Source: Amylostereum areolatum | Taxonomy: Eukaryota > Basidiomycota > Agaricomycetes > Russulales > Stereaceae | NCBI GenBank assembly: GCA_012932865.1 | Contig: SAXG01000017.1 | Location: 620,001 to 684,000, forward strand | DNA: 64,000 bases | Reading direction: 5' to 3' | Shown: positions 2,128-57,829 of the stretch, one piece after another | Numbering within the stretch: position 1 is the stretch's first letter | Layout of the letters: each line of letters starts with the position of its first letter | The notes under the pieces: generated by a model | Seen by the model: only the letters and a program-made list of their open reading frames with translations | Database searches by the model: none | What the model was told of the DNA's origin: nothing | Made by a program: the position numbers and the translations under genes

Positions 2128-2797
2128 GCCCTAAGTAGTCGGCGCCCATGCTGCCCATGATGCGGGGGACGGATGCGGTGGCCTGCACCGGCTTGGGGGG
2201 ACGGCGTCGAGCGCGAGAGGGGTGGGTGGGTTTACTAGTAAGACAGCGAGGGCCTGGCAAGTTCTCGGTGCTGCATCTTATACTTATGGACGAACCGAGT
2301 TGGACGCGGGGCGGTGGCGTCCAGCTGTGAATCGTACGGGCGCTGGTCAGGGTCTACACGTGTCTGTGCGCGGGCGTCCGAAGGGTTAATTGTGGGGTCA
2401 ATTGTCCTGGGCGGATGGGCAGGGAATCGCCAGCGGCGGTCCGTTGCTATGACGGTTGAGGCTTTCCAGGCGATGTGGCGAGCCATGTTTCCGATGCGAG
2501 CAACCTCAGTGAGCACCTGCGTCGACAAAACCCCGGATGGGGCTGATCAGGACCCTACGGAAATCTGACGCAGTCATCCGTTTTCAGAAACAACACCGAG
2601 TTCAATTCCAGGCTCAGACAGTAGCGACCAAACACGGAAGGCCGGCTGGTTAGGAGCCTGAGCGGAACCGTAACATACAAAAGTACGAAAGGCCGACGGC
2701 TCGAGTCTCCACTGTCGCTCCGGCTTGATTCTGCACCAGGGGTTGGATCTTCAGCCTTGCTATAGGATCTTTGACTTCCCCTCCTGAATCGCCAAAG
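2128..2797. other. Gap, no supported gene
   Basis: About 670 bases upstream of the orphan gene. Only short overlapping open frames without motifs are seen. It may hold the orphan's promoter or a first exon that I could not place. Confidence 0.4.
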
Positions 2798-3300
2798 TCA
2801 TTGGAACACCGAATCCGCAAAACTTCGAAAACGTACTGATCTCGGCGCGTACCCGCGCACGATCCCTAACGAGGGTGTCCGTCGACGCGACGGTGCTTTG
2901 GGAGGCTGTCCTGTCCGCACATGCGACTTGACATCCACTTCCACTTCGCGCAGGTGCGCACGCAGTCTCTGGAGAAGTTTCCCATGAACCTCCTCCTCAA
3001 CCATGCGCTGGGTCGTGCCAGGTGGTATGAAAGAACGACCGTGGAGGTAGGTGAGGAGTGCACACTCGCAATGGACGTTGAGACGCTTTTGCGACCACTT
3101 GACAGCTTCGTTGTGCTCGCAAGGATTCGCACAAACACCCGCGATTCTCCGGTGACTGGAGGGTGGAGAGGATGCGACTGGAGGGCGTCTCGACGCCATT
3201 GACCGGAGTTCCCAGAACGTCGTGCATGAGCTCGACGAAGGCCTTCATTCGCTTTTCGAACCGCTATTTGATAGGCCTGGCGCCGGTTTCCGGTGGTGAG
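2798..3300 (-). pseudogene. Possible OTT_1508-type deaminase fragment
   Basis: A minus-strand frame contains AVKWSQKRLNVHCECALLTY followed by LHGRSFIP. The pattern W-S-x-x-R-x-x-V-H-C-E-C-x-L-x-x-x-x-H resembles the zinc-ligand His/Cys block of the OTT_1508-like deaminase family that is expanded in Agaricomycetes (family link from memory). A neighbouring frame on the same strand reads KAFVELMHDVLGTPVNGVET, as expected for an upstream exon. The downstream Y-I-G-V-S-K-x-x-C-x-x-C block typical of the family is not found, and no ATG-to-stop model can be assembled, so it looks like a remnant or a very incomplete gene. It could also be an unrelated orphan. Confidence 0.3.
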
Positions 3301-3781
3301 GCCGTGCACACCAGTGAGGAGAGTGCTCAGGTGCAAGACATCGAGTTCGCGGGCGAAGACATGTGTCGATTGAAATTGGGCGTGTCGTCTGGGACTGAAG
3401 CAAGGTTTGGGAAAGGAAGGTCTGGGGAGTGGGACTGAGCGAGTCGCTTGAACGGGGGGTAAGCTTTCGCGCAGGTCGGGGCGATCTGAAGAAGGGGATT
3501 TTAGTTGACACTGGTGGTCAGGATTCGTTCGCTACACACCTTGCTATACCTGTTTTCTACCAGCAGAGCTAGCAGACCTGCGCAACTCTGGGCTTTTCTG
3601 ATCAACAGACGTCCTAAATCTATCAAAATGTCCGTGTTAGCACTGTTCCGGCGCTCTAAATTGGACGCACGTACCCGATCCCAGCGTACTGAAGAACTTC
3701 ATTTGAGGCGCGGTTTTCTAGTGGTTCGCAGTGGTTCTGAGTGTTTCAGCGAAAGAAGAGGTATGACGAGGTGCGTGAGAG
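3301..3781. other. Gap upstream of the LTR element
   Basis: No coding signal. A 95-codon plus-strand frame at 3505-3792 runs into the LTR, so it cannot be an old conserved gene. Nothing else is seen. Confidence 0.4.
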
Positions 3782-3786
3782 GATCC

Positions 3787-3995
3787 TGTTGAAAACACAG
3801 AGGGACCTTCAGTCATAAAGTGAAACACAAAGTGGACTGGCCGGGGATTGAACCCAGGACCTCCCATATTCTAGAAGGGTGCTCTAACCAACTGAGCTAC
3901 CTGTCCGATAGTGGGAACAGGTTGGTAGTTGATATAGAGAATATCACCGAGCTCTGATTGTGTGCAACAGGCCAGGGCTTAGCCTTATTTCAACA
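3787..3995 (-). repeat. 3' LTR of the miniature element (minus-strand orientation)
   Basis: 209 bp, identical to 4081-4289. It is preceded on the minus strand by the polypurine-like tract ACGGGGGTG at 4004-3996. The outer edge abuts the target duplication gatcc. Confidence 0.9.
3833..3906 (-). tRNA. tRNA-like sequence in the 3' LTR (positional anticodon AGA; probably tRNA-derived pseudogene)
   Basis: Folds as a cloverleaf: acceptor GGACAGG/CCAGTCC (one A-A mismatch), D arm AGCTC...GAGC, anticodon loop CTAGAAT, T arm CTGGG/CCCGG with loop TTCAATC, discriminator A. The A box (TAGCTCAGTTGG) and B box (GGTTCAATCCC) of Pol III promoters are intact. The anticodon stem CCCTT/ATGGG has one T-T mismatch. 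By position the anticodon is AGA (Ser), but the variable loop is only 5 nt, whereas serine tRNAs need a long arm. It is therefore more likely a tRNA-derived Pol III module than a working serine tRNA. Confidence 0.6.
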
Positions 3996-4080
3996 CACCC
4001 CCGTAAGACCAGGCCTGATGTGATCTTAGGCACTCGCCACTTGTGCCCAACAGTAATCATGAAGGCGGGTGCTGCTACCA
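3996..4080 (-). other. 85 bp interior of the miniature element (PBS and PPT)
   Basis: No coding capacity. On the minus strand it starts with the primer-binding site (4080 downwards) with zero spacing from the LTR and ends with a G-rich tract next to the other LTR. The middle 60 bases carry no motif I recognise; by analogy they would hold the packaging/dimerisation signal. Confidence 0.7.
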
Positions 4081-4289
4081 TGTTGAAAACACAGAGGGAC
4101 CTTCAGTCATAAAGTGAAACACAAAGTGGACTGGCCGGGGATTGAACCCAGGACCTCCCATATTCTAGAAGGGTGCTCTAACCAACTGAGCTACCTGTCC
4201 GATAGTGGGAACAGGTTGGTAGTTGATATAGAGAATATCACCGAGCTCTGATTGTGTGCAACAGGCCAGGGCTTAGCCTTATTTCAACA
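4081..4289 (-). repeat. 5' LTR of the miniature element (minus-strand orientation)
   Basis: 209 bp, identical base for base to the copy at 3787-3995. It has 8 bp inverted termini TGTTGAAA/TTTCAACA. In element orientation there is a TATA-like run (CTCTATATCAA) about 50 bases in, the tRNA-like gene at LTR positions 90-163, and a TTTT run at 201-204 that could end a Pol III transcript just before the primer-binding site. Confidence 0.9.
4127..4200 (-). tRNA. tRNA-like sequence in the 5' LTR (identical copy)
   Basis: Exact copy of the 3833-3906 tRNA-like sequence, shifted by 294 bases with its LTR. It has the same A and B boxes, stem mismatches and short variable loop. No intron is evident. A transcript from here could stop at the TTTT at 4089-4086, which lies inside the LTR. 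Confidence 0.6.
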
Positions 4290-4294
4290 GATCC

Positions 4295-4735
4295 CGAGGT
4301 ACGAGGGTTGACTCCATCGACGTCTGCTTTAGGAGACTAGAGGTGTGTCGAATCGGAACGAGTCTGCTTAGATCTGCTTCGGAACATGCCGCCATTCACA
4401 GTCCGCTTCGCTCTTCGACATTGGATACGTAGACCCCGACCCGAGTCACATCTGTCGCCCTCCCAGTCCTCTTCTCGCTCGATCACCCCATCCACCCAAG
4501 AGGCCTTAAGGAGTTCTGTCAGACGTGGCATATGGAGACAATAACGAGTCGGGCTGTAAATATTCATAGTCGCGATGAGTTGGGCTGCAAACAATAGAGC
4601 CCTCCACAAAGTCTTGACCGCTAAACGGGTTCAACGACTCAGGAAAAGCACGCTTGCCAACAACAAGCTAGAAATTGTGATTAGGTAGCCATGTTACAAA
4701 AGCTACTGTACAATTGAGTGCCACCCGGTATTTGC
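4295..4735. other. Gap downstream of glutaryl-CoA dehydrogenase
   Basis: About 440 bases between the element and the dehydrogenase stop. It includes the dehydrogenase 3' untranslated region. No coding frame has support. Confidence 0.5.
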
Positions 4736-6774
4736 TTAGTTCGCGAAGGCCTGGATACCAGTGATGGCCTTGCCGAGGATGAGGGTGTGGATATCCTGTA
4801 AGTCGCACATGTGAGATACGAATGCAATAGATGTTAGACGGTGAACCCACATAGGTGCCTGTCAGTGCGCAACGGCCGATACTCCCAGGTCAGAAATGGA
4901 AAAAAAAACATTCTAACTGGAAAAAACCCGACCTTCGTAGGTGTTCGTGACCTGAAGATTCGCCACATGTCTGCCGATGCCGTATCTGCAAACGACATCA
5001 GCACTGGGTGGATACACGGAGTCATGGCTAACTTACTCGTCCGCAGTTGCGTTGCCACCTAAAATATCCAGAAGGATGCGCGAGTGCTGCAACGCTTTAC
5101 CGCAATTGTTCCTCTTCACCATGCTGATCATTTCCGGCGCTACCTTGCCTTCGTCCTTGAGGCGACCCACCCGGAGGCTTGCTTGCAAACCAAGAGCAAT
5201 CTCCGTATGAGCATCGGCAAGTTTGCGCTGAACAAACTGAAAGGACGCTAGCGGGCGCTTGAATTGTTGACGCTCCTGCGCGTAGTTATGCGCGAGTTCC
5301 AGGCAATTCTCTAGCGCGCCCATCACGCCCCACGAAATGCCAAACCTGAGTGGTGCTTGAGCCGTACGCTCAAAGACGAGATAGAGAAGGTCTTACCTGG
5401 CACTGTTCAGACAGGAAAACGCGGCGCCGAGACCAATCGCTCCGGGAAGAAGTGCATCATGCGAGACTTTAACGTTGTCCATAAAGATTGAACCGGTCGA
5501 GGATACTCGCAGGGCTAATTTGTTCTTGATCCTTGGTGCAGTAAGCCCGTCTAGCCCCTAGCGTCGACGTCTCTTCAATCAACAGCCTAAATGACACTAC
5601 GAACGAGAGCATACCTTCTCAAGAAGGAACCCGCGCACTCTACTGTCCCATTTGCAGCGTGCCCAAATCACAAAGACGTCGCTAAGGAATTAATGTAAGG
5701 ACGGGCCACCACGGTCGTATGACGGATGCTCACGCAAAGGGTGCATTCGAGATCCAAGTTTTGCTACCTCGAAGGATATAGCCACCGTCAGTCTCTTCCG
5801 CGACTGTATCCATCCCCGCGGGGTCAGATCCGTGATTAGGTTCCGTTAACCCCTAAGGCGAAATGCATGAGCTCGCGTAAGTCGAAAGAAGCAAGATGCC
5901 TACAAACGCGCCGACGAGCTCTCCCTTGGCTACCGTAAAACTCAGCATACAGCTATTGCGGAGATTGCAGAGGTACACAAACCTAACCCCGGGAGATACT
6001 TCTGTTTCTGTGCCTCTGTCCCAAATGTATTGATTGGGTGCATAACCAAGGAAGATTGCACGGAAGAAGTAGAGCGATAGCCAGAGTCGACGCTGTATGA
6101 GTGATAGTTATGAATGACTTGAAAAAAAGGTCAGCAGTGAGTTTACTTACCGCTCGACTTCACGCGCGATGAGACCGTAAGCGACGTTGCTAACGCCCGC
6201 ACACCCGTAGCCCTGAATAGTCGGGCCAAGGAGTCCGACCTTTCCCATGGCCGGGAGGACGTCCAGGTCAACGCCTATACATAGCTGTGGTTAGAGGAGT
6301 GGAAGCACAACAAATGTGTATACTCACTTTCGGTGCGGTGCGCCTCTAAAACTCTTGGCGCAAGATACTCCTGAAAAAACAGTGAGTACTTCTGCCAGCA
6401 AAGAAAGAGAATCAATTTGCCTGACAGAAATCGCGCGCCGTGTCTCTGCGTAGTGCGTATCAAGGTCAGGAGAACAAGATGTCAGAGGACAGTGGCAGAC
6501 GCACCGAATGGCGACCTCTTCCTCGGTCAACTGCCCTTCCAGGTCAAACGGGTCCTTTTCATTCGAATTATTTCCACAGAAGCCATACGTCATGCGGGAA
6601 AAGGCGTACAATCCAGTTAAATTTGGCCAATCCTGTTCTTAAACGTCAGGTATAGTCTCGGGAAACCCGAAAGCACGCACCTGAGCCAGTAGACGCGTTT
6701 CGCGTGACCAGTAGACCACGATACACAGCAACACGTTGAGCAGCATGGAGGGTAGTGTTTGTCAAAAAAGACAT
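4736..6774 (-). CDS. Glutaryl-CoA dehydrogenase, mitochondrial
   Basis: FAD-dependent acyl-CoA dehydrogenase that oxidises and decarboxylates glutaryl-CoA to crotonyl-CoA in lysine and tryptophan breakdown in mitochondria. The start at 6774 gives [20 protein letters not shown], a basic amphipathic presequence. About 14 short exons then give [54 protein letters not shown] (FAD/substrate motif), [82 protein letters not shown] and [20 protein letters not shown] to the TAA stop. The Glu of EGT is the known catalytic base; the family's EGTHDIH is EGTYDIH here. That residue sits in an 8 nt microexon (4851-4858). One intron (6420-6371) begins with GC. The join after the KYLPG codons, near 5980, is the only unclear one. 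Confidence 0.95.
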
Positions 6775-7590
6775 GAATTGATAGGATGACTGTTGGGCTA
6801 GGAAGATGTTTTGGACAATGAATGCGGGGTAACGTCGTAACGGCTTGCCGGTTATGGTCCGGAACGGCATGCGAGACGCCGGTGTCACATGATCGCTATT
6901 TTTGCGCGTCGGTCTCAACCAATTGCAACAACCTACTATGTACTTACTCCGTTTCTCGATGATCTTCAGTCTGGTCAAATCCTTGTCTGCCATATCCCAT
7001 GCCATATCCCCGAAGTTCCTCTGCTTGAACGCATCTCAATTTTTTGCGCCGTGGGCTACTACATCGACAAAATATAAACCTGTTCAGGGAATATACACGT
7101 TGAAGCACACTGAGAGGCTTCGATGAGCTGGTCTTCTGACCGTCGTTGGCATTTTTAGCGTCTCCGTGTCCTCTCCTCATTCAACATTCTGCTCGCCGGT
7201 CCGACGCATAAACAGCACGACTTCAATCATCCACCACCTATCTCGTGAGTTAGTCAACTGACGAAGAACCAAGCTTGGCTGACCCCCACCCCCAGCCGTC
7301 TCCCTGAACTTCGCGCTCACAGAGCTCCTTCAATGATGATCCACAGAAATGATAGAACAGCTGGAGTTTCTGTCGTGGTGCGGGAGCCCGCCGGCTAAAT
7401 GTGAGCTATCTCTTGTTCCTGTACTTCTTTGGAGTCGACTGACGCCCTTCACAGAAGCGGGAGCAGGTCATGCGTCCACCGTCCCAAGAATCGGTGTGAG
7501 CACTGGAGTGCCGTACTTAAACCTCCTCACACGTTCTCTCTTTAGTATCGCCTTTTCCCCTCTTGTAATCACCCTGGGCTATTGGCGAGA
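6775..7590. promoter_or_regulatory. Shared intergenic region between the dehydrogenase and the first MFS gene
   Basis: Divergent promoters of 800 bases. Open frames crossing it (for example 7349-7786 in the plus +2 frame) overlap the MFS coding exon in another frame and have no motif. No clear TATA box; nothing else can be named. Confidence 0.4.
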
Positions 7591-10177
7591 ATGGACGACA
7601 CCAAACAGGAATACAGCCCCGAGGTTGAACACATCGATCGCAAGTCTGGGGTGTCGACCCCGCTCTCCCCACCGGAAACCCTGGAAGACTCTTTCCTGGG
7701 AGAAAAGCGCGCCGCAGCTGAAAGAAGGCTCGTACGCAAACTTGATCTACGCTTGCTGCCGACGATCATCGTCATTTTCATCATGAATTACATTGATGTA
7801 CGCTTTCCCTGTCTCTACGATCTAATATCTTGACGAGGCGTGCTCAGCGTACCGCGGTTACATCGGCAAGACTGAAAGGGATGGAGAAAGATCTCGGCTT
7901 GAGCGGTAAGCATTTCTTTGCAGTAATCATTTCTCGTCCATCTCGTTTATTCGAAGATGCATCTCGGTGTTTGCCTTGTACTGACCATTGGCAACAGACG
8001 TCCAGTACGATAGTATACTTGCTCTGCTTTACTCTTCGTATTGTCTCGCGCAAGTTCCCTCGAACATGATATTGAACCGGATCAGCCGGTGAGTGCTTAC
8101 GTTTCGCACGTTTCCTACCAAGCTTACAGATCTCAATGCAGGCCTTCTTTGTACATAGGAGTCTGTGTCATTGCATGGGGTTTGACCAGTACAATGACAG
8201 GGGTGAGTCCCCCGTCGTCACGTCGGCGATGAAGCAGTTCTAACACTACCCAGGTGACACGCAATTATGCAGGAATTGTGTTGTGTCGCATATTCATCGG
8301 TCTTCCTGAGGTGTGTGTGTCTGTTTGCGTTCGTGCTCTGCGTCTAATCGTACTGCAGGCTGCTTTTTACCCAGGCGCCATCTATCTGTTATCGCGATGG
8401 TACACACGCAGGGAGCTCGCCTTTCGCTCGGCGATTCTTTACGGAGGTCTGCAGTCCCTCCCTTACTCTGTCAGTGTTTGTCCCTAACCGATCACGCAGG
8501 CTTGATGATCTCGAACGCCTTTGGGAGTGTAGGTGCTTTAGACGTATCGTGAGCCACCGACTCACGTCCGTTGTTTACGCAGCTCATGGCTGCCGGTATT
8601 CTCTCCAACATGGAAGGTAAACTAGGCGTGCGAGCATGGCGATGGTACGTGGTCAGCCTTTGCAGGGGAGTACCTGGGTTAACCACGAATGTGTGTAGGC
8701 TGTTCTATATCGAGGTTGGGGTACCTTTTTCCCAGACCTGTTACTCATACTGACCGGAACGGCTGCAGGGCGCAATAACCATGTTTTTGGGCTTCTTCAC
8801 AATGTGCGTGAATTCGCCGCACCGCCAAGCCGTTCGACTGACCTTTCTGCTTGTATGTAGGTGGTTGCTACCTGATTATGTTAGTGCGATCTGTACAATA
8901 AAGCTTCCGAAGCTTACTCTTAACCAGCCCCATAATACGCGATGGATCTCTCCGGCACAGCGTCGCCTCGCCCAAATCCGTCTAGCTGAGGATGCAGGGG
9001 AGGTGGACGAGGACACGGAGACTGATACGTAAGGTTATCTTTTGAGCCATGTGTTGAATTGTGACTAACCCTTTCATTCAGTGCGTGGAGCGGTTTTATG
9101 CTCGCTATCAAGGATCCAAAGGTACGACTGTGACCTCGGTGTTTTATCAATAAAAGCTTAGTCGCACCTTATTCTAGGTCCCCATCTTAGCTTTGATGAC
9201 GTGCGCTCAGTTGTTGGGCTTGAGTTTCGTCAATTTTTTCCCAACGTAAGTTCAGCGTTTTCAGCTGCCACAGTGCTGTGGCTAACGTGTGGTCTCCCTC
9301 CCTCAAGCTTGAGTGCAACTCTCGGTTTCAACACAACAATTTCTTTGCTACTTGCTGCGTGAGATCTTGGCTCAGCAGTTCGGCGATGGTTTATATTGAC
9401 AATGGTAGATAGACCTCCATGGATCCTGGCAACAATCGTGAGTTGTACCAGCGCATGGCATGCAGGTGCGCGTGTTCCCGCTATGTCCACAACTGAATGT
9501 GTTCTGACGTGCTGTTCAGATAAATCTGGCGAACGGTACCTTCACATCACCCTTCCCTGGTGGGGTGTCGTTCTTGCCTACATCATTGGGCTCTCGACCA
9601 TGTCAATCGGTGGCCGCTATGTGGCCCTCTTCCTGATGGCTGTCGGATACTCTGGTAGGTATCCACACGCAATGGATCACATCTAGCTAACCTCCCATGA
9701 AGGTTTCGCCCTTACCCTTGTCTGGGTTTCCAACGTTGTGCCCAGACCACCAGCAAAACGTGCAGCAGCTATCGGTATCGTCAACGGGTTTGGGAATATC
9801 GGCAACTTGTATGTGATGTCGTCAAATATGTGGCGCTATCACTAATTTGCGGACTTTGTTCAGAATCGGATCCTTCACCTGGAAGGCAGAGTGGGGGCCT
9901 AACTATCATCCTTCTATGTGGATCAGCATGGCATCTCTGCTCTTCAGCGCAGTGCTCGCCACAGGCACGACCATTCCTTGCCAGCGTTATACTGAATGTT
10001 CACCGACGGGTTTTTATAGTCGTCCGCCAGATGCTCGTTCAAGAGAACAAGAAACTCGCCGAGTCCGAAATGCAAGATCCAGCCACTCGCCAGCGTATCG
10101 AAGACGCGGCTCGTCTGGAGGGTATCACAGTCCAGGAAGCGACGGATCGCAAGAAAGGCTTCCGCTATCTCATCTGA
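7591..10177 (+). CDS. MFS transporter, allantoate/nicotinate permease type (copy 1)
   Basis: Major facilitator superfamily carrier of the anion:cation symporter group (Dal5/Tna1-like), predicted to import small organic anions across the plasma membrane; the substrate is unknown. Start at ATG 7591 (MDDTKQEYSPEVEHIDRKSG). About a dozen short exons spell KLDLRLLPTIIVIFIMNYID-RTAVTSARLKG (first helix and the family's D-R-x-x motif), PSLYIGVCVIAWGLTSTMTG, AAFYPGAIYLLSRWYTRREL, NMEGKLGVRAWRWLFYIEGA, ISPAQRRLAQIRLAEDAGE (central cytoplasmic loop), WWGVVLAYIIGLSTMSIGGR, RPPAKRAAAIGIVNGFGNIG and the C-terminal tail RKKGFRYLI. Twelve helices can be placed. The next gene is its closest paralogue, in the same orientation 650 bases downstream. 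Confidence 0.93.
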
Positions 10178-35154: not shown

Positions 35155-38135
35155 ATGGCGAACCACAACTACACTCAGCCACCGCGTATGTATACATTAT
35201 ATTTATTGCATTTGTTGGGTCTCATTCCTCGCATCAGCCCAGCAGCCCATGTCCCAATCCGCCGAGCGCGCCCACTCTTACGATCCCAGGCCACATCAAC
35301 CTCCCTTCGCCCCCGGTCACGATCCACGCTTCCCACCCTCCGTCTTTCCCCAGCATTCGTTTCCTCCTCCTCAAACCTCCTATCAATACTCTTACTCCCA
35401 ACCACAGCCCCAATCTCATCTTCACGGCCCTCCGCTCGTCACCAACCCTCCTCCCATTCCGAGACAGACCATATCCGCCCCCAGCCCTCAATACCCCGTC
35501 CAGATTCTTCCCTCTCGCAATGCGGCGGAGAACACCGCGATCAGTCCCACCAACGGCGCACTCGCTCGTCGTCCGCTGCCCACCCCGGGTTCCGCTCCCA
35601 AACAGCCCTCGTCCGCGTTCGTGAGATCGCCACTGCCCACGCCGGAACCGACGCCGTCGCCCGCCTCGCCCCCGCCTCGCAATCAACCAATGTCGCCTCC
35701 CACGCCCGTCACCACCTCTCCCAATAGACGTCCTCTTCCCCACCCTTCCTTCCGCCTCCCAAATTCTTCGGAGGAGAGCTTTCGCAGCTCAAGCCCCATC
35801 AAATCCCCTCCTCTCCCCGTCCTCGACAGCAGACCTTCTTCCCCTTCAAAGTTCGTTCCCTACTGGAAGCGCAACCTTCCATCCCTCAACACAGGCCCGA
35901 TCACCCCCGTTTCCCCGGCCGACACCGACCCTCCCCCGGATGCGCCTCCCCCAGGCCCCCTTCGCGCCCGAGGAAAGAGCGTCAGCAACGGTCGCCCTCT
36001 CCCTCCTTCCCCTTCCATGCCTCCAGACCTCAGCTCCCTCAATCTCGGCTCCCCTGGCCCTGTTCACACCGACCCGACCATTCCCAAAGTGTCCGCGATA
36101 TCCGTGCCCCGCGGCTGGCCCGTGCAGGACGATGCACCGTTGCGGTCTCCTCCGCGACTGCCCGCTTCCTTGCGCTCGACATCCCCAGTTCGCGCAGGTT
36201 CGGATGATCTTTCCCGACAGGCGAGGGCACCCAGTCCTCAGTACGGCATTCGCGACCTTCCCCCGCGCTCGAGAGCGAGCGAGAACAAGACTACGCACTA
36301 CAATGATCCCTCCGCTGTTGGACGTCCTTCGCGTTCTTCAACCCTCCCTCAGCCCAGCGCACCTCCGCCGATCAACACCATGAACCCTCCCGAGTCGGTC
36401 AAGTCTCACCATCGCTTCTCGCAATCTGTCAACTTGCGTGGAACAGAGCCTCTGGCCGCAACACGCTCGACCCCGATTTCGACTCCGGCTTCCCCTATAG
36501 GCTGGCCCAACGGCCTTCCCCCCCTTCCCCGTGCTCCCATCGCCGGGAAACCGTTTGTGGTCAGCCACATCCTGAACAATCATCGCGAGTCTGTCGATCT
36601 CGACGAGGCTCCCCCGCGGTCCTTCCATCGGTCACGCTCCCCGTCCCCCGTGTCCCCGATTCGTTTCGCTGCACGCCCCGACATGGACCCCTACGACACT
36701 CCCGGACATTCGCCCTCACCACCTCCTTTACCCTCCCGGTCGAAATCCAATCCTTCATCGCCCAAAAGGATCGAGAATCCACCTCTGCCTCCACCCCCTC
36801 CGCGTCATCCGGCCGCTCCGCGACCCACGTATCCCCCTGGTGCTCGGTTTCATTCCCAAGAACGTCAGCCAACGTCACGGTTTATGTCACCCGATCGTTC
36901 CGACGCTCGACAAACGCCCTACGAACGTGGACGGCCTTTCGCTTCGTCGCGCAGTCAGGCCAAGAATGTCTTCCCCAGCGCATCCGACAGAAAACCGCCC
37001 CCGCCGATCCACGAAACCGCACGTCGCGGACCCTCTCCACAGCGGCCAACACAGCAGCTTGTCTCGTCTCCCACACAGCCGTTTACATCGGTCATGCCGA
37101 AGATTTCACTACCTGGAGGTCCGGACGATTCGGATGACGATGACAACTGGGGTGGCCCGCAGATCAACGTATCAGGTCCAGCGGTCCCGCAGATCAACGT
37201 AGCATCGCCGGCTTTACCCCAAATTAACGTTCCGGGATCAGACTCTTTGCCGTCGTCGAGACATGGACATGGACCAACGATCAACGTCCCAGGATCGGGT
37301 GGGCCTGAACGGACAGGTGGGCCGAGGGGCCGCACGGTTCAACCTGCAAACCCGATGCGTCGTGGTGCAGGATTGACGTGCGGTGGGTGCGGAGGACCCA
37401 TTGTGGGACGAATCGTGAGCGCGATGGGCTCGAGATGGCACCCGGGCTGCTTCCGCTGCAGCGTCTGTGACGAGTTGCTGGAATACGTGAGCTCGTATGA
37501 GCACGAGGGGCGGCCGTACTGTCACCTCGACTACCACGAGGTACGTGCCGTGTCTTGTTATCTTCTTCCACGGACAACGTACTGATGGGTTTGTCTATAT
37601 GCAGAACTTTGCACCCCGTTGCTACCACTGCAAGACGGCGATCGTCGATGAACGGTTCATCACCCTTGACGACGTTGAACTTGGCAAACGCAAGTACCAC
37701 GAGCAACACTTCTTTTGCTCCGAATGCGGCGATCCCTTCCTCACGCCGACGATCGGTCGGCCGGCACACAAGGGCGGCGGAGAGCTCAAGTTTACGGGTG
37801 ATGGCGAGTTCGAGGACGACGACGTCGGGTTCACGGTGCACAATGGGTATCCGTATTGCGAGGCGTGTCACGTTAGACTGCGCTCGCCCCAGTGCAAGAA
37901 GTGCAAGAAGAGTATCAGGGACGGAATGCAGGCCATCGAGGCCATTGGGGGCAAGTGGCATTGGGAGTGTTTCGTGTGCACGGTGAGTTGGTTGTCTGGA
38001 TCTGAAAGCGTCGCAATTTACTGACGATGGGGTCAGGGATGTGACAAGCCGTTCGAGAACCCGTCCTTTTTCCTTCGTGGGGAGAAGCCCTTCTGCGAAA
38101 GTTGCTTCAGCATCATCATCAAGAGCGAGATGTAA
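35155..38135 (+). CDS. Proline-rich protein with three C-terminal LIM domains (paxillin-like)
   Basis: Probable cytoskeletal/polarity adaptor like yeast Pxl1. Four exons: 35155-35185, 35238-37540, 37605-37982, 38037-38135. The N-terminal 700 residues are disordered, Pro/Ser-rich with many P-x-x-P and S-P sites. Three near-identical short repeats of Q-I-N-V-x-G/S-x-A/S occur at 37160-37290 (PQINVSGPAV, PQINVASPAL, PQINVPGSDS, TINVPGSGG). LIM1 is LTCGGCGGPIVGRIVSAMGS plus WHPGCFRCSVCDELLEYVSS; LIM2 is PRCYHCKTAIVDERFITLDD with HEQHFFCSECGDPF; LIM3 is PQCKKCKKSIRDGMQAIEAI with WHWECFVCT-GCDKPFENPS and FCESCF. All zinc ligands are visible. The C-terminus is IIIKSEM. Exon 2 of 2.3 kb is unusually long for this window. 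Confidence 0.95.
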
Positions 38136-41080: not shown

Positions 41081-44000
41081 ATGTCTGTCATGCTCACCAA
41101 GTTCGAGTCCAAGAGCAATCGGGTTAAAGGTGCAGTCTCTTGTTTCTTAATCCGCTTGTAGCTGCTTATGTGCAGTGCAAGGCCTCGCTTTTCATCCCAC
41201 GCAACCCTTATTGGCCGCGTCCCTTCATAACGGCAGTGTGCAGCTATGGAATTATCGAATGGGCGTCTTGGTGGACAGATTTGAAGAACACGAAGGTGCG
41301 CGTCCTTGACGTCCTTTCTTTTGCTCATGTCTAACCATAGTTTTATGTCAGGACCTGTTCGTGGCGTTGCGATCCATCCTAGTCGCCCGCTCCTAGCCAC
41401 TGGCGGTGATGATTATAAAATCAAAGTTTGGGGTGAGCCCTCGTGTAATCTCACAACGCGACGCGTCCTCACGAGCTTCAGACCTCCGTCCTCAAAGTCG
41501 GAAGTGTCTCTTCACCCTCCATGGACATTTGGACTACGTCCGCACCGTCCAGTTTCATCATGAAATGCCATGGATCGTATGTCATCTCTGCAATACCCTC
41601 GCAGTGTCGCCGTTTTAACCCATCCTCCCTTCTAGCTATCCTGCTCCGACGACCAGACGATTCGCATTTGGAACAGTACCTCTCGCAACTGCATCGCCAT
41701 CCTCACCGGCCACTCCCACTATGTCATGTCGGCCTTCTTTCACCCCAAGGACGACCTGATCGTGTCCACGTCTATGGATCAAACTGTCCGCGTCTGGGAC
41801 ATCTCCGGGTTGCGCAAGAACACGCCCAACAGCGCTCCTGGCACTTTCGACACGTTCGATAGCTTCTCAACGGTCAAATACGTCCTTGAAGGTCACGACC
41901 GTGGCGTTAACTACGCAACGTTCCACCCCACCTTACCGCTCATCATCTCGGCCGCGGACGACCGTCAAATTAAGCTCTGGCGGATGAGCGAGACCAAGGC
42001 GTGGGAAGTGGATGCTTGCCGCGGGCACTTCAACAATGTTTCTAGCGCAGTGTTCCACCCTAAGCACGAGCTCATCGTGTCCTGTGGCGAGGACAAGACC
42101 GTCCGTGTTTGGGACCTAGCAAAGCGATCGGCTGTCCAGACCTTCCGACGGGAGCACGATCGTTTCTGGGTCCTGGCTGCCCATCCTGAGCTCAACCTTT
42201 TTGCAGCCGGTTAGCTTCGATTTTCGTCCGTCTGGATGAGACCGTGTTGATTTGTTTCTATACATAGGCCACGACAATGGGTTAATTGTCTTCAAGCTCG
42301 AGCGAGAACGTCCAGCCTTTGCTCTCCACGGTGACATGGTCTACTACGTTCGGGACAAGTACGTGCGGTCCTATGACATCAACACGGGCTCGGATATCGG
42401 TCTTTTGAGCGTCCGCAAGTTTGGTAGTCCATACGTACCACCGAGGACCCTGAGCTTCAACCCTGCCGAGCGCTCCGTTCTTCTCACCATTTCGTCTGAT
42501 AATGGCATGTGGGAGTTGACCTCTCTGCCTAAAGACGTTGTTGGTGAGGTCAAGGATTCATCTGTGGATGGAAAGCGTGGTATGGGGCAAAGTGCCATCT
42601 TCGTCGCGCGCAACAGATTCGCCGTACTGAACAAGACTAGCCAAGTGAGCTTACCTGTTTGTCCTTGTGCAGCGCGGTGCTCCTAATTTTTTATCCTAGC
42701 TTATTGAAGTCTGCGACTTGACGGGTTCGGTCGTCAAGAGCATCAAACCTCCAGTCCAGACGAACGAAATTTTCTATGGGGGAACTGCTAGTCTTATTCT
42801 CAGTTCAACTTCGTCGGTGGTCCTCTACGACATACAGCAACAGAAGACCATCGCGGATCTCAACAGCCCGCCTGTGAAGTACGTTATGTGGAGCGCAGAC
42901 AACTCTCAAGTTGCTCTATTGAGCAAGCACAGTACGTTCCTCATTTGCGATCCTCTCAAACTTGCAAACAAACACATCTTTCACAGCCATCACCATTGCG
43001 AACAAGAACTTCACGCAGAATACTCTCATCCATGAGACAATCCGTATAAAGTCTGGTGCTTGGGATGACGCTGGCGTCTTCGTCTACTCGACGTTGAACC
43101 ACGTTAAATACTGTTTGCCTCAGGGGTATGTTCGAACGAGTTATCTACCATTTATGATTGCTCACGATAATATGAACAGTGACCACGGTGTTATATGTAC
43201 GCTCGACAATCCTGTCTATCTGACCCGTGTGAAGGGAAAGACCGTTCATTGTCTGGACCGATCTGCTCGCCCCCGCACCATCACGATCGACCCCACCGAA
43301 TATCGCTTTAAGCTCGCGCTGATTCGCAACAACTATGACGAGGTTCTTCACCTCATCAGGTCGTCCAATTTGCTGGGACAAAGTATCATCGCATATCTCC
43401 AGCAGAAGGGTTTCCCGGAGGTCAGCACTTCTATCATGTTTAAACCGCATATACTGACTTAAAGGTAGATTGCCCTTCACTTCGTCGATGATAAAAATAC
43501 GCGATTCGATCTTGCTATCGAGTGCGGTAATCTCGAAGTCGCAATGGAGACTGCTAAAGCAATTGACCGTCCCGAGTGCTGGAGCCGTCTGGCGCAGCAA
43601 GCTCTCAAACAGGGCAATCATAAAGTATGACCTTACTTAATACTGGCGATCAACGAGCGACTCACCCGACAACCTAATGTGCAGATCGTGGAGAAAGCAT
43701 ACCAGCAGACCAAGAACTTCGACCGCTTGTCTTTCCTATATCTCTCCACTGGCAGCACCGACAAACTCACCAAGATGCAGAAGATTGCTGACGCTCGAGG
43801 CGACCCAATGTCTCGCTTTCACAATGCGCTTTACGCTGGAGATGTTCCGGGTCGTATAGCGGTATTGCGCGAGGTTGGCATGCGTAAGTCGTCGAACCAT
43901 TGTCACATTGTTTACATACTTACAGATCGCATTGGCACTCAGATCCCCTCGCTTATCTGACTGCGAAAACCAACGGGCTAGATGACCTGGCTCTAGAAAT

Positions 44001-45473
44001 CCTGGAAGATGCGGGCCTGACGGAGGCCGATGTTGACGATGTTCCCGACTTCGGTCGATCTACTCTCAAGCCGCCGCCTGTCGTGACAGACACAACGAAC
44101 TTCGTTTGGCCTTCGGTCCCCGGTGGCGAGAGCTTCTTCGATCGTGCATTGGCGAACGGTAACCTGGAAGCGGGTGTCGAGTCATACATGAACGGTGACC
44201 ACACGGCCGCTACCTCTGCTGCCTTGGACGAGTGGGCAAAGGATGAGGAAGACGAGGATCTGGCAGCCGATGAAGACGGCTGGGACCTTGACGCCGGCGG
44301 AGATGGACATGCGGATGAAGACGAGGTAGAGGAGCAAGCAGAGGACGAGGACGAAGAATTGGGCGCAGGAGCAACTCCCGGTGTCAGCGAGCCCGAGCTT
44401 TGGACTCGCAACTCACCATTCGCCGGCGATCACGTTGCAGCAGGCTCCTTCGACACTGCGATGCAGGTTTGTTGCTATTTAGACTTGCTTAATATCTTGA
44501 CTGACATTTCCAACAGCTCCTTAATCGTCAACTGGGCATCGTCAACTTCGCGCTTCTCAAACCGTTGTTTTTGTCTGTTTACAAATCGTCCCACGCATAC
44601 CTATCGCCACTTGCGTCTCTCCCACCTTTGCATCTCCATCTCCGTCGCAACATCGCCGAGTCATCATTGAGTCGTGTGCTCCCAGTAGCCGTAGTGACTC
44701 TGCGACAGGTCAAAGCCGAACTCTCTGAAGGTTTCCGTGCAGTGTCTGGCAATCGACTACCAGATGCTCAGACGACATTCCGATCCGTATTGCAGTCGCT
44801 GCTATTTGTGGTTATCTCGTCAGACGAGGAGGCTAAAGAGGCACGTCTAGTTCTTTTGAAAGTACGAATGATACTGATTGATCGTATTTATATATCTAGT
44901 GGCGTGATACTGTCACGGTGGCCCGCGAATACCTTCTTGGTGTGTCCATAGAGCTGGAACGTCGCCGGATCGCGCAAGCCGAGCCGGACAATGTTAAGCG
45001 AAGCCTCGAACTTGCGGCCTATTTCACGCACTGCACCCTCCAAGCACCGCATATGCAAATCGCCCTTCGCAGCGCAATTCAAGTGTTCACCAAGGCGAAC
45101 AACATTGGCACGGCGGCCAAGTTCGCGCGACGCCTATTGGACCTCAATCCCGATCCCAAGATTGTCGCCCAGGTACGTGGCTCGCTGATAGTCTTTTAAG
45201 CGTTGGACATTAACATTGAGCGATTGTCAGGCCCGACAACGTATCGCGGCCGGGGACCGCAATCCGCGTGACGCCGTTGAGATTGACTACGACGAATTCA
45301 CCGAATTTGCGATCTGCGCGGCGAGCTATACGCCAATATATAAGGGCTCCCCGGCGGTCCGCTGTCCCTACACGGACGCGTCATTCCTGCCGGAATTTAA
45401 GGGGACCCTGGAGCCATTGACAAGCTTGACAGAGATTGGGGCTGCCGCGTCGGGCCTGCCTGCACCTCGTTAA
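41081..45473 (+). CDS. COP1: Coatomer subunit alpha
   Basis: Alpha subunit of the COPI coat (Ret1/COPA), needed for Golgi-to-ER retrograde traffic; it binds KKxx cargo through its WD40 propeller. Start [17 protein letters not shown], then [120 protein letters not shown] and [20 protein letters not shown] (seven-bladed propeller, residues 1-320). The solenoid has [35 protein letters not shown] and [20 protein letters not shown]; an acidic linker (44250-44360) follows. The C-terminal epsilon-binding domain has [56 protein letters not shown] ([20 protein letters not shown]) and [15 protein letters not shown]. About 15 exons; length near 1200 residues as in the family. Confidence 0.97.
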
Positions 45474-56927: not shown

Positions 56928-57581
56928 TCATCGTAAGGTAAATCGATCCGTACGATGGACGCCTCGGGCGCGTTGCCGACCCGACAAGCCAGACTCTAGT
57001 CCATCTGCTTCTGCTTCCACTTGTGACCGCCGAATCTCCTTCCACTTGGTGGTCTCCTCTTGACGACGCCGGTGGATCGCTCCTTCTCTGTGCTGACGCT
57101 CACGGACAGCCAGGCGATCGCGCTGTTCTTTTGTGGGTTGCCATTTACTACGAAGAATGCGGCGCACGGCCTCGGGACTGATGTGAAATTTGTCCGCCAG
57201 GACGGGAGTGGAGAAAGTTTGGGGATCGAGGGAGTGAAGGGAACGAAGGCCGTCCATGGCGTCCCGAGAAAGTTTCCGCGGGGGAGCCCAACCCTCGGGA
57301 AAGTTATTCTTCAACGTCGCGCGATGTGCAGCCCAGCTGCCAGGAGTGGGGGGCTTAATCGGCGTAAAATTTGAGGATTGTCGTTCTACAGGACCTTCGT
57401 CCTGTTCCTCCTCGATCGTCTCTGGCGCGCTTGCGGGTGAACGATGTGTCTTTGCATGGCTTCTCCCGACGAATGGTGGATTTGAGTGATACATCAATGC
57501 ATGGGAGGCAACGACAGTGGAAGTAGATTCCCGAGAAGATGAGCGGAAGCCGGAGCGGAGGACGCAGAGGATGAAGGACAT
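56928..57581 (-). CDS. RRG9: Rrg9/neugrin-like mitochondrial protein
   Basis: Intronless, 217 residues. Homologue of fungal Rrg9 (required for respiratory growth) and animal neugrin, which binds the mitochondrial large ribosomal RNA. Start 57581 (MSFILCVLRSGFRSSSREST), an Arg/Ser-rich presequence. The conserved core is GWAPPRKLSRDAMDGLRSLH, DPQTFSTPVLADKFHISPEA-VRRILRSKWQP (residues about 110-155), an HTH-like helix block with the family's pattern F-x-I-S-P-E-A-V-R-R-I-L-x-S-K-W. A basic C-terminus follows (RRRQEETTKWKEIRRSQVEA). It ends at TGA 56928 next to other frames that are open; an intron near the C-terminus cannot be excluded. Confidence 0.88.
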   Translation of the reverse strand: MSFILCVLRSGFRSSSRESTSTVVASHALMYHSNPPFVGRSHAKTHRSPASAPETIEEEQDEGPVERQSSNFTPIKPPTPGSWAAHRATLKNNFPEGWAPPRKLSRDAMDGLRSLHSLDPQTFSTPVLADKFHISPEAVRRILRSKWQPTKEQRDRLAVRERQHREGAIHRRRQEETTKWKEIRRSQVEAEADGLESGLSGRQRARGVHRTDRFTLR

Positions 57582-57829
57582 GGTGGTCGACGTGGACGGA
57601 GCGGCGAAGGACGCGCGCGCCTGCGCGCCGTCGCTGCCGTCGCGCCGCGCGGTCACCGATGGAATCGATTCACGTGACTAGCGAGCGCCGACGACGGTGA
57701 AGCCTTGATCTAATACTGTACTCTGCTTCGCTTTCTCCCTCGTCTTCGTCTTCCTCGCCTTGGTCGTCTGTGTCTTCTCCCGCTGGGCCATTCTCACCCT
57801 TATTATCATCGCTCTCCTGTTTTCCATCC
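57582..57829. promoter_or_regulatory. Divergent promoter, Rrg9 and coactosin
   Basis: 248 bases between the two start codons; C/T-rich on the coactosin side. A 97-codon minus frame here is low-complexity Asp/Glu and not credible. Confidence 0.4.

Follow-up and report, generated by a model that had tools for sequence, protein, structure and literature searches.

A Helenus-type miniature LTR element with tRNA-like LTRs in Amylostereum areolatum and a candidate Copia partner

The stretch of 64,000 nt analysed here, hereafter the window (C76:620,001-684,000), comes from the genome of the agaricomycete Amylostereum areolatum and contains a short LTR element in which each LTR carries what reads as a tRNA gene. 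The locus raises the question of what kind of element this is, and how an element that encodes nothing would be transcribed, primed and moved. We consider it highly probable that it is a recently inserted non-autonomous TRIM of the Helenus/TRIMp3 type, which would use an RNA polymerase III (Pol III) transcript, priming by the initiator tRNA-Met (iMet) and proteins supplied in trans, for which a family here called Copia-A is the best candidate supplier.

Structure and classification of the element

The TRIM occupies positions 3787-4289 of the window (503 bp), and its sense strand is the minus strand. The 5′ LTR (209 bp; 4081-4289) is identical to the 3′ LTR (209 bp; 3787-3995), and both start with TG and end with CA when read in the sense direction. 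The element is flanked by the target site duplication GATCC (left, 3782-3786; right, 4290-4294). The interior is non-coding and measures 85 bp (3996-4080). At one end it holds a primer-binding site of 13 nt (4068-4080), complementary to the CCA end of the host initiator tRNA-Met(CAT) and beginning at the first base past the 5′ LTR, that is, with zero spacing; at the other end the G-rich, polypurine-tract-like stretch ACGGGGGTG (3996-4004) adjoins the 3′ LTR. A search for ungapped repeats in the window found no second repeat of at least 40 bp besides these LTRs.

A tRNA-like module is located at LTR positions 90-163, also on the minus strand, and therefore occurs twice: at 4127-4200 in the 5′ LTR (B box 4138-4148, A box 4182-4193), where it is the presumed Pol III promoter, and at 3833-3906 in the 3′ LTR (B box 3844-3854, A box 3888-3899). 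Both occurrences score 56.1 bits with the Rfam tRNA model RF00005 (gathering score 29), and ARAGORN labels the module Ser(AGA). The A box (TAGCTCAGTTGG) and the B box (GGTTCAATCCC) are intact by sequence and fit the consensus of the Pol III boxes. About 30 bp upstream of the module a TATAT stretch can be read directly, and any role for it is presumptive. The sense strand has two T4 runs only, one near each LTR end (LTR positions 201-204), and the opposite strand has none. The first-pass annotation had described this anatomy correctly, from the identical TG/CA-bounded LTRs to the zero-spaced primer-binding site, as well as the sense-oriented tRNA module in each LTR, and its observation of a miniature LTR element is confirmed.

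Elsewhere in the window there are open frames for a LIM-domain protein (35249-37582), a COPI alpha C-terminus (43900-44667) and a Neugrin-like product (56931-57656); 764 of 773 residues of the LIM-domain frame are identical to an Amylostereum chailletii protein. A Pfam search of 16 window frames returned no transposon domain, and the tested frames look like ordinary gene space.

Elements of this kind have been described. Helenus, named by Kojima in 2024, comprises TRIMs with tRNA-like LTRs and forms TRIMp3 together with Cassandra and Ajax, with sizes from 311 to 1263 bp (PMC10886601). Fungal Helenus elements are reported with 5 bp duplications, with primer sites for the anticodon region or the 3′ end of iMet, and with expanded “tRNA-Ser-AGA” and other tRNA predictions (PMC10886601). 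The element of the window resembles them in being short and non-coding with two LTRs; in having, in each LTR, a tRNA-derived sequence that includes A and B boxes; in its iMet primer site, directed at the 3′ end as in some families, and its G-rich tract; in its 5 bp target duplications, found in 43 of 47 full-length copies and at 20 of 20 empty sites; and in a disagreement between anticodon and tRNA body, as in many families though not all, its AGA anticodon lying in a body without a long variable arm. No structural difference was found, the comparison with the published families being one of structure. The element differs in one feature which is outside the definition of Helenus: in some families the primer site is common to Helenus and autonomous Copia elements (PMC10886601), while the Copia groups A, B and C of this genome carry a site for the anticodon half.

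By its structure, then, the element falls within the definition of Helenus, and the kind is already known. The class has very probably also been recorded from this species: PMC10886601 states that Helenus was detected in Amylostereum areolatum, although its Table 1 does not include the species. The first-pass annotation had proposed a fungal counterpart of Cassandra, a miniature LTR element equipped with a promoter sequence of the Pol III type; the reading was right, but the idea had already been published as Helenus/TRIMp3 (PMC10886601). Cassandra, a plant TRIM, likewise has a Pol III-type gene in each LTR and a tiny non-coding interior (PMC7215508; PMC10886601), but the gene is 5S rRNA and not tRNA, and the hosts are plants. 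TRIMs have been reported in Boletales, in a paper whose available text makes no mention of tRNA-bearing LTRs (PMC5689174). A literature search over titles and the beginnings of abstracts found no other paper on tRNA-bearing LTR elements besides Kojima 2024, which is cited in a meeting report of 2026.

Membership in Cassandra or Ajax was rejected, as RF00005 tRNA is the only match at gathering score in the window and 5S rRNA gave none. tRNA-derived SINEs have no LTRs and show target duplications of varying length; this class was also rejected, given the two LTRs and the constant 5 bp duplications.

Copies, target sites and recent mobility

The assembly searched for the family has 182 contigs and 57,130,172 bases in total. 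The 15-mer TGGTAGCAGCACCCG occurs 52 times in it (backward control, 0) and the 12-mer CATGGTAGCAGC 56 times (control, 16); 55 of these 56 places are TRIM interiors and one is an apparently coding stretch. The interiors number at least 55: 47 belong to full-length copies, 7 to copies that are damaged or interrupted, and one is supernumerary within an inverted double. At least 20 additional LTRs were classed as solo, one of the 20 being part of the inverted double. All TRIM copy counts are lower bounds, because similarity searches score the best candidates only.

Matching 5 bp flanks were found in 43 of the 47 full-length copies and in 9 of the 20 solo LTRs; with random 5-mers, about 0.05 of 47 copies (47/1024) would be expected to match by chance. 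In 40 of the 47 full-length copies both LTRs are identical to those of the window over the aligned part. The 67 full-length and solo places are reduced to 61 distinct loci when places with both flanks in common are merged, and for a few further places, on contigs C72, C134 and C158, a flank or target word in common makes it probable that one event has been repeated by duplication of the sequence. The 46 distinct target sites with matching flanks present 45 different 5-mers, one of which occurs twice, so there is no fixed target word; base counts at single positions of the target site are uneven.

Copia sequence is present on at least one side of 29 of the 67 full-length and solo copies. Both flanks of 20 copies lie inside one and the same Copia, Copia-A, and in all 20 exactly 5 bp of Copia-A are duplicated; these paralogous empty sites correspond to 17 distinct insertions. 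Constant duplications of 5 bp are the signature of integrase-mediated insertion, and judging from the copies compared the window copy is recently inserted and its family very recently active. A check that the first-pass annotation had put forward, the presence in the genome of further copies with target duplications, gave a clear positive result, and the cases that it had named as refuting (a single copy, copies without target duplications, or a segmental duplication) fail against the copy counts, the flanks and the empty sites. An ordinary tandem or segmental duplication of a tRNA gene, although it could account for two tRNA-like genes 294 bp apart and although some TRIM places are later duplicates of one another, is rejected by the matching flanks of the full-length copies and the 17 distinct empty sites and has a practically negligible probability.

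Some places have a more complex structure. At locus L055 (C96:474,132-474,787), with GATGA on both sides, a single insertion contains two inverted interiors and truncated LTRs, and looks like the integration of an aberrant cDNA. Among the copies at C56:491,535, 506,669 and 515,351, one with the flanks CGAGC/TGCAC has its upstream flank in common with a CGAGC/CGAGC copy and its downstream flank in common with a TGCAC/TGCAC copy, an apparent recombination between TRIM copies. At locus L026, positions 1127-2127 (C32:62,626-63,626), one TRIM is located within the 3′ LTR of another, and its duplication, GTTTT, overlaps the T4 run. In IMG/VR, from which records of the TRIM's own genome are possibly excluded, the junction of LTR and primer site had 0 matches.

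The tRNA-like module, the primer and a proposed expression model

Among 26 host and organellar tRNAs, a sample in which one copy of the module itself was set aside and nuclear Thr and Lys genes are absent, the nearest to the module is Ile(AAT), with 53 of 76 aligned positions. The nuclear tRNA-Ser(AGA), of which one gene was read, has a long arm and matches the module at 48 of 89 aligned positions; the body around the AGA anticodon of the module, in turn, lacks a long variable arm. In the stems of the cloverleaf two positions are unpaired, one belonging to the acceptor and the other to the anticodon stem. The covariance score of the module, 56.1 bits, is just under those of nine host tRNA genes (57.4-67), and two initiator genes in the same run had no match at gathering score. 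That the element provides the host with a working tRNA, labelled Ser-AGA, might be suggested by this near-host score; it is very improbable in view of the unlikeness to the host Ser(AGA) gene, the greater closeness to Ile(AAT) and the unpaired positions, and a host-serving tRNA-Ser was rejected on the mismatch between body and anticodon.

A mitochondrial-looking tRNA cluster (Ala, Phe, Thr, Gln, Lys, Tyr) was seen on loci L067, L068 and L069 (contigs C80, C77 and C178). Positions of tRNA matches suggest the same cluster on C85, C91, C150 and C151, one of these contigs being 1.4 Mb long. The recurrence suggests organellar insertions or assembly joins.

The module may also be regarded as a passenger, that is, a relic of a SINE or tRNA insertion in an element transcribed by Pol II from LTR signals. 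Its predicted folding energy does not by itself stand out (z −1.25, equalled or bettered by 26 of 200 shuffles), which would suit a relic. The first-pass annotation had proposed to see whether the tRNA part is the most conserved, and no significant excess of conservation over the remaining LTR was found: in a set of 18 distinct diverged LTRs, the module, with 74 of 209 positions, holds 18 of 70 unique changes (p 0.10), and 12 of 37 when only substitutions are counted and indels and an 85.6% copy are excluded (p 0.86). Several of these 18 LTRs have changes inside the A or B box. On the other hand, the boxes and the 56.1-bit cloverleaf are retained in the 40 full-length copies matching the LTRs of the window, the stretch from the module to the LTR end is without a T4 run, and tRNA-like modules recur across many Helenus families (PMC10886601). 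Taken together, a passenger module is an unlikely explanation.

For the preferred reading, in which Pol III use by the TRIM is presumed from sequence features, the following course can be proposed. RNA polymerase III would start near the 5′ end of the module in the 5′ LTR. The TTTT at the end of this LTR (4086-4089, minus strand) would stop an RNA of about 115 nt unless it is read through. Sometimes the polymerase would pass this weak T4 and stop at the TTTT of the 3′ LTR (3792-3795, minus strand), the presumed stop of the full-length RNA; the readthrough RNA would measure about 409 nt, with an R of about 115 nt repeated at both ends and a U5 of 5 nt, and the early stop would leave the RNA of about 115 nt as a by-product. 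With such an R and U5, the transcript would be a workable template for reverse transcription of the LTR type. It would be reverse-transcribed from tRNA-iMet, and the cDNA would be integrated by proteins supplied in trans, with Copia-A as the best candidate supplier. Pol III transcription of Helenus is unvalidated in PMC10886601 as well.

A search with the 3′ end of the initiator gave ten matches, six of which fit the initiator. Five of these genes were read and all are Met(CAT); four are complementary to the primer site over 13 nt and one over 12 nt, the CCA tail, which is not encoded, being assumed in the match. Two of the five genes, identical in their flanks, may represent a single gene that the assembly contains in duplicate. 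The exact 12-mer CATGGTAGCAGC found no junction of LTR and primer site in the genome other than that of the TRIM.

Copia-A as a candidate partner and the shared islands

Copia-A is a Copia element of 5,939 bp which, at locus L025, positions 2448-8386, interrupts the 5′ LTR of a TRIM inside the B box; its target duplication, GATTG, corresponds to TRIM LTR positions 146-150. A preference of Copia-A for the tRNA of the TRIM is not proposed here: readable insertions are few, and one junction or more departs from a clean insertion. The element has two identical LTRs of 451 bp and an open frame of 1,495 codons (stop to stop) with Copia gag, reverse transcriptase (RT) and related domains; the match to the integrase core, 24.9 bits, is under the Pfam cut-off of 32.6. 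The LTRs of Copia-A and the TRIM have their ends in common, TGTTGAA at the start and TTCAACA at the end (7 bp each), and their G-rich tracts, ACGGGGGTG in the TRIM and CACGGGGGAG at the same place in Copia-A, have ACGGGGG in common. Beyond the termini and the G-rich tract, comparison of the two elements found no similarity (best E 0.65 for the interior and 1.8 for the LTR).

The genome has 130 RVT_2 rows, of which 71 were used as three groups picked by score and by hand: group A, to which Copia-A belongs (45 rows, 203 to 209 bits); group B (19 rows, more than 214 bits); and group C (7 rows, 137-158 bits, hand-picked for covering most of the profile). The following contrast holds for these 71 rows, and only counts are used, not a binomial p, because nested and duplicated copies violate independence. 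A group A RT domain lies within 20 kb of 43 of 55 TRIM places, in a zone that makes up at most 2.0% of the genome, and 12 of the 55 copies lie beyond 20 kb from any Copia-A domain. With the copy at C158:3111 left out, none of 54 TRIM places is within 20 kb of group B or C, and one is within 40 kb of group B. Seen from the other side, 33 of 45 group A domains have a TRIM at a distance of 20 kb or less, against 0 of 19 in group B and 0 of 7 in group C. The 59 left-out rows are mostly partial and score at most 198.3 bits. A TRIM is located no more than 20 kb away from 30 of them, and the number rises to 41 when group A domains are counted as well; the left-out rows may be broken Copia-A copies.

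Copia-A and the other Copia groups with a recognised site have a primer site for the anticodon half of iMet. The 14-mer CAGGTTATGGGCCC, which represents this site, occurs 85 times in the genome (control, 0), and it is found 2.0-6.5 kb upstream of the RT domain in 33 of 45 group A, 7 of 19 group B and 5 of 7 group C rows; for 39 of the 85 sites, none of 72 examined RT rows falls in that range. By complementarity, then, the priming mode of the TRIM (3′ end of iMet) differs from that of its proposed partner (anticodon half).

These priming data favour a different helper, such as a Gypsy, or a Copia whose primer site is spaced and directed at the 3′ end of iMet. Such a helper would move the same class of element while Copia-A is a mere co-resident: all the Copia groups compared carry the anticodon-half site, and the exact 12-mer leads to no LTR junction besides that of the TRIM, its 56 places being 55 TRIM interiors and one apparently coding stretch. 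Against such a helper stand the LTR termini and G-rich tract common to the TRIM and Copia-A, and islands that the two have in common and that the 26 group B and C places do not share. We regard another helper as a possibility of some weight, though the less favoured one. The common islands could also stem from shared retention rather than from a shared integrase. On the termini, tract and islands, Copia-A is the likely, though unproven, mobiliser of the TRIM.

When places within 40 kb are linked, the TRIM and group A places are distributed over 24 contigs, a count that covers the contigs carrying a TRIM or a group A element, and 20 of the 24 have a single cluster; this pattern is weaker than it sounds, because several contigs are short and several clusters consist of one or two elements. 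The GC content of ten island stretches ranges from 0.45 to 0.60, with 0.53 in the window, so there is no consistent low-GC signal. The TRIM copy of the window is an exception to the clustering, since no Copia RT row on its contig comes closer to it than 200 kb.

Copia-A LTRs and RT domains are regularly spaced at C41:5,856-20,768 (about 3.7 kb), C85:67,285-80,120 (about 4.3 kb) and C148:185,243-197,255 (about 4.0 kb), which suggests tandem arrays of shortened Copia-A. At C1:1,627,942-1,650,596 a unit of 11,327 bp with Copia-A and TRIMs appears to be duplicated in tandem, with three RT domains exactly 11,327 bp apart.

As a hypothesis, the islands shared by the TRIM and Copia-A may be centromeric. 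A comparable case is GlCEN427 of the agaricomycete Ganoderma leucocontextum, a Copia with an LTR of 427 bp (451 bp in Copia-A) concentrated in a single region of each chromosome that its authors regard as centromeric (PMC10817607); it differs in that no tRNA-bearing TRIM is mentioned in the text available of that paper, and it is likened to Copia-A by description. In the centromeres of einkorn, RLG_Quinta and RLG_Cereba form a pair of non-autonomous and autonomous LTR elements with common end motifs that are concentrated together (PMC11302176). Quinta, however, still contributes GAG, and association with CENH3 is shown there, whereas the TRIM is non-coding, its partner is a Copia and its islands are candidate centromeres. 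A wider conjecture, which we offer tentatively and rate as rather doubtful, is that a Pol III-driven TRIM and its mover Copia-A prefer the centromere of each chromosome, where insertion, nesting and recombination would make tRNA-like Pol III units recurrent building blocks, the TRIM being primed by a different end of iMet than its helper.

For annotators the family carries a warning: at least 123 alignments to its LTR reach 200 bp, and every one of them includes all or most of the tRNA-like stretch. This number is to be set against the 457 tRNA genes reported for the Amylostereum areolatum assembly (PMC7227769). For Helenus, the similarity of primer sites and a single internal match between species had served to infer a helper of the fungal elements, and the helper of Cassandra is stated as unknown (PMC10886601). 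To that account, as far as its available text goes, the present analysis adds a partner candidate in the same genome, shared islands and empty-site evidence of recent mobility. The TRIM adds a case of very recent activity to the Pol III-type genes found in LTRs, here those of an agaricomycete, and a candidate in the same genome, with common LTR ends and islands, makes the question of its helper testable.
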